Source: Rhodobacterales bacterium HKCCE2091 (GTDB taxonomy: Bacteria; Pseudomonadota; Alphaproteobacteria; Rhodobacterales; Rhodobacteraceae). Taken from it: 64,000 nucleotides of DNA. Below, piece after piece: positions 52,700 through 61,873 of the stretch. Under the pieces are notes generated by a model, which had not been told where the DNA came from, did not search any database, and worked only from the letters and a program-made list of their open reading frames with translations. The position numbers and the translations under genes were made by a program. Within the stretch, counting starts at the first letter, position 1, and each line of letters opens with the position of its first letter. Location of the stretch: contig WVSL01000001.1 in assembly GCA_015689685.1 (NCBI GenBank), positions 297,001-361,000 of the forward strand. Direction: 5' to 3'.

Positions 52700-54103
52700 A
52701 TGGCCGCCAAGACGCTCTACGACAAGATCTGGGACGCCCACCTCGTTGACGAGGCAGAGGACGGGACCAGCCTGCTCTACATCGACCGCCACCTCGTCCA
52801 CGAGGTCACCAGCCCGCAGGCCTTCGAGGGCCTGCGCATGGCCGGTCGCACCGTCCGCGCGCCGGACAAGACCATCGCGGTGCCCGACCACAACGTGCCG
52901 ACGACACCGGGCCGCGACGATCCCGCCAACATGACCGAGGACAGCCGCGTCCAGGTCGCCGCGCTGGATACCAACGCGAAGGAATTCGGCATCCACTACT
53001 ACCCGGTCAGCGACGTGCGGCAGGGCATCGTCCACATCGTCGGGCCGGAACAGGGCTGGACCCTGCCGGGCATGACCGTGGTCTGCGGCGACAGCCACAC
53101 CGCGACCCACGGCGCCTTCGGCGCGCTCGCGCACGGGATCGGCACGTCCGAGGTGGAGCATGTTCTGGCCACCCAGACCCTGATCCAGAAGAAGTCGAAG
53201 AACATGAAGGTCGAGATCACCGGCAAGCTCCGCCCCGGTGTCACGGCCAAGGACATCACGCTCAGCGTCATCGGCGCGACCGGCACCGCCGGCGGCACCG
53301 GCTACGTCATCGAGTATTGCGGCGAGGCGATCCGCGACCTGTCGATGGAAGGCCGGATGACGGTCTGCAACATGGCCATCGAGGGCGGCGCGCGTGCCGG
53401 CCTGATTGCGCCCGACGAGAAGACGTTCGAGTACGTCAAGGGCCGCCCCCACGCGCCGAAGGGCGCCCAGTGGGAAGCGGCGATGGCGTGGTGGAAGACG
53501 CTCTATTCCGACGACGACGCGCACTGGGACAAGGTCGTGACCATCGCGGGCGAGGACATCGCCCCGGTCGTGACCTGGGGCACCTCGCCCGAGGACGTGC
53601 TGCCGATCACCGATGTCGTGCCGGACCCGGCCAGCTTCAAGGGCGGCAAGGTCGACGCGGCGAAGCGGTCGCTCGACTACATGGGCCTTACGCCGGGCAC
53701 GAAACTCTCCGACATCGCCATCGACACGGTGTTCATCGGGTCCTGCACCAACGGCCGGATCGAGGACCTGCGCGCCGCGGCCGCGATCCTGAAGGGCAAG
53801 AAGATCAAGGTGAAGCGCGCGATGATCGTGCCGGGCTCCGGCCTCGTGCGCGCGCAGGCCGAGGAGGAGGGTCTCGACACGATCTTCACCGAGGCCGGGT
53901 TCGAATGGCGGCTCGCGGGCTGCTCCATGTGCCTTGCCATGAACCCCGACCAGCTCGCCCCCGGCGAACGCTGCGCGGCCACGTCCAACCGCAACTTCGA
54001 GGGTCGGCAGGGGCGTGGTGGGCGCACCCACCTGATGTCGCCGGCGATGGCGGCGGCGGCGGCGGTGACGGGGCACCTGACCGATGTTCGCGAGATGATG
54101 TGA
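52700..54103 (+). CDS. leuC: 3-isopropylmalate dehydratase large subunit
   Basis: LeuC with LeuD isomerises 2-isopropylmalate to 3-isopropylmalate in leucine synthesis. The 467-residue protein has the three Fe-S cysteines: one in [13 protein letters not shown], and those in IGSCTNGR and [32 protein letters not shown] and [17 protein letters not shown] are typical. The start at 52700 follows CGGAGAGAACC. Unlike in many relatives leuD is not next; about 5 kb of unrelated genes lie between. It ends with two hairpins. Confidence 0.97.
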
Positions 54104-54235: not shown

Positions 54236-54697
54236 ATGAACGAAGTGCAATACTGGCGGGCGCAATTCGCGGTTTCGGTCATGCTGCTCGCCATTGCGGT
54301 GTGGGCTTTCGCTCCTCCTTTGGTGAACTGGCATTTCTGTTTCGACGAGGACAGGCGGCCCGAAAGGCGACTGGTTGCCTGCGACCACTTCATTGAGCGC
54401 GAATTGCAGAGGCGGGCCTACTCCCCCAATGAAAGATATTTGTCCAGGTTCACGATGGAGCGTGCCATCGTCCGGACCGAGGTGGGGATGTGGGAACCGG
54501 CGATCGAGGACTTTCGCGCGGCGCTTCGATTTGCCGGGGTGTCGGAAGACTTCGTCTACGACATCGAGAATCTGGATTTCTCAAGCTTGAACCACACAGG
54601 GTGGTACCTGATCCGGCGCGGTGAACAGCTCCCGGTCGACTCCGCTGCCTATTTCGTCTGGACCGGTGTCCTGCTGACGGACTTCGCGCCCGATTAG
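54236..54697 (+). CDS. Hypothetical protein with one N-terminal membrane helix
   Basis: The 153-residue protein begins MNEVQYWRAQF and has one hydrophobic helix (about residues 11-30, AVSVMLLAIAVWAFAPPLV), then a soluble part with several charged helices (DFRAALRFAGVSEDFVYD). I recognise no family. The base composition is visibly lower in GC than the neighbours and includes codons rare in this window (AGA, TTG, TCA, TTT), which suggests recent transfer. No cluster partner is evident; it follows leuC behind a terminator. Confidence 0.62.
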   Translation: MNEVQYWRAQFAVSVMLLAIAVWAFAPPLVNWHFCFDEDRRPERRLVACDHFIERELQRRAYSPNERYLSRFTMERAIVRTEVGMWEPAIEDFRAALRFAGVSEDFVYDIENLDFSSLNHTGWYLIRRGEQLPVDSAAYFVWTGVLLTDFAPD

Positions 54698-54768: not shown

Positions 54769-54985
54769 TCAGGTCGCCTTCCGCAACTCGCTTTCGGACT
54801 TCAGCACCGCGCCGCCGTCCTCCTGCTCGATCCGGTAGGCCGGTTCGTCCTCGCTGGCGTTGCGGGTCACCTCCGCCCCGTCGATCTTCAGCGTGATCTT
54901 TCGGGTGTACTTCTTCGCCACCTTTCCGGCCCCCGGTGCCGTTGCCCCAGTCCCATTCCACCTTGCTGCCTTCGCGATACGCCAT
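54769..54985 (-). pseudogene. DUF2945 (TUDOR-like) gene with a +1 frameshift
   Basis: Read from the ATG at 54985 the protein starts MAYREGSKVEWDWGNGTG, the standard DUF2945 opening, and then leaves the frame. One frame over, the rest follows exactly: GKVAKKYTRKITLKIDG, then AEVTRNASEDEPAYRIEQ and VLKSESELRKA with a TGA at 54769. Removing one base from the five-C run (54930-54934, G run on the coding strand) restores a 71-residue protein. This is either a real disruption, a slippery site, or a homopolymer sequencing error. The protein is associated with stress responses in bacteria by context only. It is divergent from the HdeD-like gene. Confidence 0.85.
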
Positions 54986-55112
54986 CGGGTGCTCCTGTTC
55001 CTCCGCTAAACCCGTCGACCTAAGTCCGAAGCGCGGATCGAACAGGCCGGTTGCCAGACGCGCGGTTCCGGGGGATAGGTACCGGCGCCCCAGTGCAGCC
55101 GCGAGACCCCCC

Positions 55113-55613
55113 ATGTCCCCCACCCGCCTGATGCTGATCGCCGGGATCATCCTGATCGTCGGCGGGGTTCTGTCGCTGCTTGCGCCCTACGCGGCCTCGA
55201 TCGCGGTGACGCTGATCGTGGGCTGGAGTTTCCTCATCGGCGGGATCGTCAACCTCGCGGCCGCGTTCGGAAACGACGGGCATCGCGGGTCGCACGTCCT
55301 GTTCGGGCTACTCGGCCTGCTGCTCGGCCTTTCCTTTCTGCTCGACCCTCTTGGCGGGGTGGTGTCGCTGACCATCCTCGTCGGGATCGTGTTCCTGGTC
55401 TCCGGCGGCTTCCGGCTCGCGCTGGCATGGGCGCGGCGGGAGATGTCGGGGTTCTGGATCCTGCTCCTGTCCGGCGCGCTGTCCGTGCTGCTCGGTGGGT
55501 TGATCCTGTCGAACCTCGGCGGCGCGGCGCAGTCGATCCTGGGCATCATCGTCGGGATCGAACTGCTGTCGGCCGGGATCGGGCTGGTGGCGCTGTCGCG
55601 GATGGGGCGGTAG
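55113..55613 (+). CDS. HdeD family membrane protein (DUF308)
   Basis: The 166-residue protein has about six hydrophobic helices in pairs, with few charged residues between, in the DUF308/HdeD pattern (LMLIAGIILIVGGVLSLLAPYAASIAVTLIVGWSFLIGGIVNLAAAF). HdeD is part of an acid-resistance region in E. coli, but the mechanism of the family is unknown. The start at 55113 gives MSPTRLMLIAG. It is divergent from the broken DUF2945 gene over 127 bp. The pair sits in the block between leuC and leuD. Confidence 0.88.
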   Translation: MSPTRLMLIAGIILIVGGVLSLLAPYAASIAVTLIVGWSFLIGGIVNLAAAFGNDGHRGSHVLFGLLGLLLGLSFLLDPLGGVVSLTILVGIVFLVSGGFRLALAWARREMSGFWILLLSGALSVLLGGLILSNLGGAAQSILGIIVGIELLSAGIGLVALSRMGR

Positions 55614-60008: not shown

Positions 60009-60851
60009 GTGATCTCACAGGTGGCCGGTGCGGCTGTGAGAGCAGTGATCGTGATGGTCGTTATCGCGACCCCATCGCTGCTCATTCCAGGGACCCATGC
60101 GGAAACAACGCAGATCGTGACGCTCGTCGCGATTTTCGGCGCGTTCCTCGTTTATTCGGAATACGCCGGCACCTATCCGGGGCTGATCGAGTTCCGCGAT
60201 GCGCCGCCGTTCAACCGCGTGCGGCTGATTTCCGTCTTCGTCACCTTGTTCCTGCTCAGCCTCGTCGTGTCGGGCGGATCGACCACCTCGACCCTGTCGC
60301 TGGTGGTGAACGCTGCCGGCTTCGTCGTCGGCAAGGCGCTGGAGTTTCCCTACTCGCCGCTGACGATGGTTCTCGACAACCTCGGCGCGGACGCCACGCC
60401 CGCCCTGCGCGTGAGGCTCCAGATCATGGCCGGCATCGCGGCGCTGATCGCGCTCATCACCCTGGCCCTGTTCGCGATCCTGATCCGTATGAACCAGTGG
60501 CCCGCCCGCGACCATGCCTTCAACGTCTGGACCAACCTGCCCACGTTCGACCCGACCACCGGCGGCGACGTGGTGGCGCGGCTGACGCGCGACAGCCGGA
60601 TCAACATCGCGCTCGGTTTCGTGATGCCCTTCGTGCTTCCGCTGCTATTCTGGCTCGGCGCGCGGCATCTCGGGATCTCCCTGCTGGCGCATCCGCAATC
60701 CCTGGTCTGGGCGGTCATGCTATGGATGTTCCTTCCGGTGTCGATGTTCATGCGCGGCATGGCGATGGCTCGGATCGCGGACATGATCGAGGCGCGCCGC
60801 CGCCGGCTGACGGCAGGCCTCGGCCCCGACGACGGCTTCCAGCCAGTCTGA
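60009..60851 (+). CDS. Hypothetical membrane protein
   Basis: The 280-residue protein has about six hydrophobic helices (near residues 10-27, 35-50, 75-90, 95-110, 138-160 and 200-240) and short loops with no motif I recognise. Homologues beside leuD and an endonuclease-family gene are, as I recall, common in Rhodobacteraceae, so it is probably conserved within the family. The stop overlaps the next gene's proposed CTG start (CTGA). It follows leuD after a 273-bp gap. No function is assigned. Confidence 0.8.
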   Translation: MISQVAGAAVRAVIVMVVIATPSLLIPGTHAETTQIVTLVAIFGAFLVYSEYAGTYPGLIEFRDAPPFNRVRLISVFVTLFLLSLVVSGGSTTSTLSLVVNAAGFVVGKALEFPYSPLTMVLDNLGADATPALRVRLQIMAGIAALIALITLALFAILIRMNQWPARDHAFNVWTNLPTFDPTTGGDVVARLTRDSRINIALGFVMPFVLPLLFWLGARHLGISLLAHPQSLVWAVMLWMFLPVSMFMRGMAMARIADMIEARRRRLTAGLGPDDGFQPV

Positions 60852-61873
60852 TCGCGGGGCTTCTCGCCGCCGCGCCGGCCGCCGCGGACACCCTGCGCCT
60901 CGCGGTCTACGACACCGATCTGCAACGCGACGGCCCCGGGCTCCTGCTGCGGGACATCCTGCGCGGCGAGGACGAACAGGTCGCCGCGTTAATCTCCGTC
61001 ATCGCCGACGTTGATCCCGACGTGCTGCTGCTGATCGGGATCGACTACGATGCCGGTCTCGCCGCGCTCTCGGCCCTCGCCGACCGGCTGGCGGCAGCCG
61101 GCGCGGACTACCCGCACCGTTTCGCCCTTCGCCCGAACGCGGGGATCCCCACCGGCAACGACATCGACGGCGACGGCCGCTGGCCGGAACCGCAGGACGC
61201 GCAGGGTTACGGCCGCTTCTCGGGCGAGGGCGGAATGGCGATCCTGTCGCGCCTGCCGGTCGACGGCGACGGGGTGCGCGACTTCTCCGGCCTCCTGTGG
61301 CGCGACCTGCCGGGCAACCGGGCCGCCGATGTCCTGGCCCCCGAGGCCGCGGAGGTGCTGCGGTTGTCGACGATGGGCATCTGGGACGTGCCGCTGGTGG
61401 CGGGCGACGACCGGTTCCACGTCCTTGCCATCACCGCCGGGCCGCCTGTCTTCGACGGGCCCGAGGACCGGAACGGCATCCGCAACGAGGACGAGACCGC
61501 TTTCCTGCTGCACTACCTCGACGGCTGGTCGCCGGATGGCGCGCCCTTCGCCGCTGAGGATTTCGCGATCATGGGCATCCTCAATGTCGATCCCGACCCG
61601 GCGCGGGGCGAGGGGCGGCGCGGGGCGCTGTCCGCGCTCCTGTCCCACCCCGCGATCAGCGATCCCGAACCGCGCGGCGCGGGCGGCACCGCCACGGCGG
61701 ACTGGGACGACCCGGTGCCCGGGGACCTGCGGGTCGACTACATCCTTCCGGCCGCCGGGCTCACCGTCACCGGGTCGGGCGTCCACTGGCCGGAGGACCC
61801 GGCGGCGGCCGAAACCGCCGCGACCGCCTCGGCCCACCGGCTCGTCTGGGTCGACGTGGACCTAGGCGAGTGA
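60848..61873 (+). CDS. Secreted endonuclease/exonuclease/phosphatase family protein
   Basis: The protein of about 341 residues opens with a hydrophobic stretch (LIAGLLAAAPAAA) that looks like a signal peptide ending before DTLRLAVYDTDLQRDGPG. Its core resembles the DNase I-like endonuclease/exonuclease/phosphatase family (VIADVDPDVLLLIGIDYD, FHVLAITAGPPV, LRVDYILPA). Key DNase residues are degenerate: the usual DxN catalytic loop reads IMGILNVDPDP. The start codon is unclear: no ATG, GTG or TTG lies within about 120 bp upstream in frame, and CTG at 60848 overlapping the preceding stop is the only local candidate. It ends 12 bp into a convergent gene. Confidence 0.75.
   Translation: MIAGLLAAAPAAADTLRLAVYDTDLQRDGPGLLLRDILRGEDEQVAALISVIADVDPDVLLLIGIDYDAGLAALSALADRLAAAGADYPHRFALRPNAGIPTGNDIDGDGRWPEPQDAQGYGRFSGEGGMAILSRLPVDGDGVRDFSGLLWRDLPGNRAADVLAPEAAEVLRLSTMGIWDVPLVAGDDRFHVLAITAGPPVFDGPEDRNGIRNEDETAFLLHYLDGWSPDGAPFAAEDFAIMGILNVDPDPARGEGRRGALSALLSHPAISDPEPRGAGGTATADWDDPVPGDLRVDYILPAAGLTVTGSGVHWPEDPAAAETAATASAHRLVWVDVDLGE

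Follow-up and report, generated by a model that had tools for sequence, protein, structure and literature searches.

On the minus strand of the 64-kb stretch of DNA analyzed here (the window), a gene of the DUF2945 family (PF11160, Hva1_TUDOR) runs from an ATG at 54985-54983 to a stop codon at 54771-54769 and is interrupted by one frame change near a run of five C. From the sequences of this gene and its relatives, we consider it quite likely that DUF2945 proteins, with a putative Tudor-like barrel fold, form a standard part of the stress output under direct EcfG control in this bacterial family, and that with the window copy one of two copies has been lost naturally, through damage to its reading frame and probably also to its promoter. 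A single small gene with a frameshift is of little importance by itself; the new part is the lead on the role of the family.

A DUF2945 gene divided between two reading frames

Both the DUF2945 gene and the C5 run that an initial annotation had reported are present (Table 1); the strand, which it left out, is minus. The frame that opens with the ATG is family-like for about 17 codons, i.e., MAYREGSKVEWDWGNGTG, and then passes into an unrelated tail, running on for about 64 codons past the break with no nearby stop. The next frame carries the remainder of the family sequence (ORF 54769-54921, PF11160 E 5e-9), and this bears out the frame break that had been described. In a PF11160 profile search of the genome, the C-terminal half matched profile positions 14-59 with an E-value of 1.5e-9 and a score of 40.3 bits, above the cut-off of 24.1. 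The whole domain was not found in one open frame, its start being in the other. As far as can be told from sequence, the window copy is a broken member of PF11160 and no working one. The sequence narrows the break down to a region of roughly a dozen bases and no further.

Table 1. Positions of the interrupted DUF2945 gene, its parts and its neighbors in the window.
Feature	Position	Strand	Evidence or remark
leuC, neighbor	52700..54103	+	convergent DUF2945 gene <100 bases away in 4/60 other DUF2945 genomes
153-aa ORF separating leuC from the broken gene	54236..54697	+	no match among 100 other genomes
DUF2945 / Hva1_TUDOR gene, frame changed once (a pseudogene, or an error of assembly)	54769..54985	-	profile matches, identity of the halves
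C-terminal half, 52 codons + stop, next frame	54769..54927	-	PF11160 E 5e-9; 43/51 residues as in L020
Five-base homopolymer at or beside the break	54930..54934	-	sequence read
N-terminal half, 17 codons in the ATG frame, holding predicted strand 1	54935..54985	-	14/17 residues as in L020
AGGAG, Shine-Dalgarno-like, intact, before the ATG	54992..54996	-	sequence read
Possible remnant of an EcfG-type promoter, GGAAC-N20-TGTT, 84 bases upstream	55041..55069	-	motif search
DUF308 gene, divergent neighbor	55113..55613	+	adjoins leuC in the sister species

Conservation of the two halves and uniqueness of the break

The closest named relatives by the broken gene include Salipiger, Litoreibacter and Wenxinia, all of which belong to the Rhodobacteraceae. 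An ortholog from Salipiger bermudensis (L020) shares 14/17 residues with the N-terminal half and 43/51 compared residues with the C-terminal half. Together with the AGGAG before the ATG, this agreement makes a gene split between frames a better reading than a chance resemblance. Over the two halves, identity was 84% to L020 and 82% to a further S. bermudensis ortholog (L021); unlike the window copy, both orthologs have an intact frame and carry GGAAC-N17-CGTT 55 bases upstream. The two halves of the window copy span the length of the family. In an alignment of 48 distinct members, from which family members below 75 bits and duplicate proteins were left out, the broken copy retained all 21 columns that were at least 85% conserved, and neither half contained a stop. 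The family name was thereby upheld, as PF11160 matches were found and both halves align to the family. These matches and the otherwise conserved halves also support the view that the change is very recent if real.

Across 296 genomes of the bacterial family, the PF11160 profile gave 65 matches in 62 genomes, 64 of them above the cut-off; the sub-threshold match (G331, profile positions 9-52) sits in a 957-codon frame and is probably unrelated. The match began at profile position 1 or 2 in 63 of the 64 over-threshold cases, the window copy alone beginning at position 14. Likewise, all 19 named DUF2945 loci read through the break region in one frame.

Whereas the family name, the break and its recency thus stood, the initial annotation's suggestion of a slippery translation site did not. 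A programmed frameshift or transcriptional slippage could yield the full-length protein, and there is indeed a five-base run at the break. However, five bases are few for slippage, and such a run is nothing special in the window, where G/C runs of exactly this length number 92. Moreover, the break is conserved in 0/63 of the other over-threshold matches and 0/19 of the named loci, and the zero frame lacks a stop close to the site. We therefore regard recoding as very improbable.

Predicted fold of the intact protein

A structural model of the intact ortholog L020 (pLDDT 90.2) showed a small barrel, with strand 1 at residues 8-13 and strand 2 at residues 16-26. The break falls inside strand 2 of this model, from which we infer that neither half should fold alone. 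In structure comparisons, the L020 model aligned with the PHF1 Tudor domain (8h43_C; Z 8.2, rmsd 1.6, 53 residues aligned), Cryptococcus CNAG_02591 (4p5n; Z 7.8, rmsd 2.1, 62 aligned) and R67 dihydrofolate reductase (2rk1; Z 7.7, rmsd 2.1, 55 aligned), and the best Foldseek hit was a double Tudor (E 8.4e-3). Because R67 dihydrofolate reductase tied with the leading Tudor domains, the modelled fold is of the Tudor/SH3-like barrel kind and not Tudor in particular. Small barrels commonly reach Z-scores near 8, and these fold matches therefore do not point to any ligand. When the C-terminal half was searched by sequence against solved structures, the hits were designed proteins only (best E 0.012). 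Our guess is that the DUF2945 barrel may be induced by stress and bind protein tails or nucleic acid. The name Hva1, which according to a passage in the Pfam literature replaced DUF2945 after hypervirulence-associated protein 1 (PMC6324024), implies no virulence here.

The model also bears on whether the C-terminal half alone might be translated, from a GTG at 54921, and work as a shortened protein. A 50-codon open frame does start at this GTG and scores in PF11160, but its product would be without the first strand of the predicted barrel and part of the second. None of the 63 other over-threshold matches is shortened in the same way, and by eye no well-placed Shine-Dalgarno sequence precedes the GTG. 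We find this reading scarcely credible, even less so than recoding.

An EcfG-type promoter motif upstream of DUF2945 genes

Passages in published work give the EcfG promoter motif as GGAAC-N16-CGTT (PMC3892343), as GGAAC-N16-17-C/GGTT (PMC12148442) and, in Sphingomonas melonis, as GGAAC-N17-20-GTT (PMC6599016). The form GGAAC-N16/17-NGTT was present within 150 bases of the ATG in 48 of 64 DUF2945 genes, at 45 to 76 bases upstream with one exception at 98. As a background, it occurred 15 times in 506,002 strand-bases from eleven pieces of the window's own genome (the window, nine further stretches and the nepR region), which corresponds to about 0.3 expected in 64 upstream regions. When 55 upstream regions were compared with shuffles, the motif was found in 39 as against 0.2, with a sharp peak at spacings of 16 and 17; this set partly overlaps the 64 and includes named loci from outside the bacterial family. 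In the window and eight C1 stretches, N16 and N17 spacings were less common than N13, N18 and N19, indicating that base composition does not account for the motif in the relatives. Among 150-base pieces of DUF2945 loci, promoters included, 77/2208 contained the motif.

The exact motif was missing in 15 other DUF2945 genes, three of which have it with one mismatch, while several lie right behind another gene; some of these motif-less genes seem, from their arrangement, to sit in operons. In three loci (L061, L087 and L010), DUF2945 directly follows a gene that by eye ends like DMTKSELISALRDH, an ending that presumably resembles a Rho N-terminal-like domain; this gene is possibly another stress-linked partner.

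No GGAAC-N16/17-NGTT with at most one mismatch was found within 150 bases of the ATG of the window copy. The possible remnant listed in Table 1 has a spacer of 20, as against 16 or 17 in the 48 relatives, and falls just outside the S. melonis range. The missing motif is a hint that the window copy has a second lesion. Had the promoter been lost long ago, however, the coding halves ought to show further decay, contrary to their flawless state.

Co-occurrence with NepR and a possible stress role

NepR is the anti-sigma factor of EcfG. It was detected in 61 of 62 genomes with DUF2945, compared with 83 of 234 others (Fisher 1.3e-21, shared ancestry ignored). This table was counted by hand, treats two draws of 296 genomes as identical and includes the sub-threshold G331, without which the counts are 60/61 and 84/235. 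In at least 16 genomes, against an expectation of about 0.4, nepR lies less than 15 kb from DUF2945. The PhyR-NepR-EcfG system is present in the genome to which the window belongs, genes for a HisKA_2 kinase, an ECF sigma factor, NepR and PhyR adjoining one another in G000:C23 (L109). Their order is like that of the kinase, sigma factor, NepR and PhyR genes given for Rhodobacter sphaeroides in part of a published study (PMC5830050).

DUF2945 genes here thus look like members of the EcfG general-stress regulon known from Alphaproteobacteria, in that the relatives carry the published motif and co-occur with nepR, although the window copy has no exact motif. This is a modest, testable lead. No link between stress and DUF2945, Hva1_TUDOR or PF11160 was found among the matches listed from the open-access literature; the family is mentioned, with no stress link in the portion concerned, in a protein catalogue of Asaia bogorensis (PMC12502724).

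A second copy and the gene neighborhood

The window belongs to a draft genome with 45 contigs and a total of 4.44 Mb (completeness 99.96, contamination 0.14), which contains another DUF2945 gene at G000:C34:47556-47741 (L001). This second copy belongs to the same family as the window copy but is intact, matching the full profile (1-59), and has the promoter motif (GGAAC-N17-GGTT, 55 bases upstream of its ATG). It was absent among the 12 closest members listed for the window copy.

By profile search, there was no DUF2945 match in the only other species of the genus examined, in which a DUF308 gene directly follows leuC. With the family missing from this sister species, there is no close relative with which substitutions could be compared. 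Dating of the break by substitutions relative to six relatives was set aside, the relatives all being distant and the gene short.

The orientation of the window copy relative to leuC is the same as in the four genomes in which leuC adjoins a convergent DUF2945 gene (G048, G127, G167 and G211; G331 is excluded from this count, as it is from the promoter counts). Given this common orientation, with the two genes split here by the 153-aa ORF, the arrangement suggests that the place beside leuC is an old position of DUF2945 rather than the site of a recent arrival. The sister species, for its part, has two NepR matches within 3 kb (G001:C1:83379-85955).

Real mutation or assembly error

On balance, we think it fairly probable that a stress-linked DUF2945 barrel gene was broken by a one-base mutation and that its loss is tolerated by virtue of the second copy. 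The gene would have encoded a Tudor/SH3-like barrel protein of roughly 71 residues, a member of a family whose genes EcfG, the general stress sigma factor, apparently activates in relatives. A one-base change of length in or beside the short homopolymer would have placed the start and the rest in different frames. Translation from the ATG would then give about 17 correct residues followed by roughly 64 unrelated ones. Because the break interrupts predicted strand 2, no barrel would form. An intact copy with a promoter motif elsewhere in the genome probably makes the loss tolerable. What speaks against this explanation is that both halves are otherwise flawless, whereas a gene silent for long should show more decay.

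The main competing view is that the frame change is an assembly or sequencing error and that the gene of the living strain is intact. We give this a smaller but substantial chance. Changes in the length of a homopolymer are among the common sequencing errors, and one such change is what is seen here. The retention of 21/21 conserved columns and the lack of stops are also as expected, since an error would look identical. Such errors may occur in the collection of genomes: in a 3-contig genome, leuC (L078, G010:C3:2131923-2133316) is split between two frames, perhaps by a sequencing error there. On the other hand, the run is only five bases long, and no second frameshift was seen in 239 kb even though the window contains 16 longer G/C runs of six or seven bases. 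Real decay is also the better fit to the lack of a promoter motif and to a sister species without the gene.

The scan for further frameshifts used a home-made codon-frame model on the window and nine further stretches of the same genome (175 kb). The model caught 43/60 simulated frameshifts and, combined with reading of the translations, revealed no other frameshift in these 239 kb. Zero events still allow up to roughly 17 per Mb, with which one isolated error is compatible. The DUF2945 break itself is not flagged, because its N-terminal half is too short, and similar breaks could be missed. Seven calls were made in the window at a lax penalty and three at a strict one, each time with one at the window end. 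The six window calls away from that end proved from their translations to be gene boundaries or overlaps. One of the six, at 60844, where the downstream gene has no usual start codon, was rejected as a frameshift on the grounds that the same overlap recurs in relatives. The six calls in the nine further stretches were likewise dismissed as continuous frames or gene boundaries.

With 239 kb clean, the paralog intact, the family missing from the sister species and the motif missing from the window copy, we lean towards a real mutation, i.e., a recent pseudogene is favored over an assembly error. A single pseudogene is an ordinary kind of gene loss.

A likely CTG start codon elsewhere in the window

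The start of an Exo_endo_phos gene on the plus strand (60848-61873) overlaps the stop of the gene upstream of it (60009-60851). Near this start there is no ATG, GTG or TTG; an in-frame CTG overlaps the upstream TGA, as CTGA. Thirty-six genomes of the bacterial family were examined (6 + 30 with loci, drawn from 56 of the 61 genomes with a match). The CTGA overlap, with CTG in the downstream frame, was found in 23, compared with ATGA in 6, TTGA in 1 and another arrangement or none in 6. Among the 23 CTGA genomes, 9 had no ATG, GTG or TTG in the stretch examined. The matches listed from the literature included nothing on a CTG start of this gene. Judged from sequence comparison, the Exo_endo_phos gene likely starts at CTG, a start that would be conserved between genera and coupled to the stop codon of the gene upstream. 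By eye, a signal-peptide-like sequence follows directly after the CTG.
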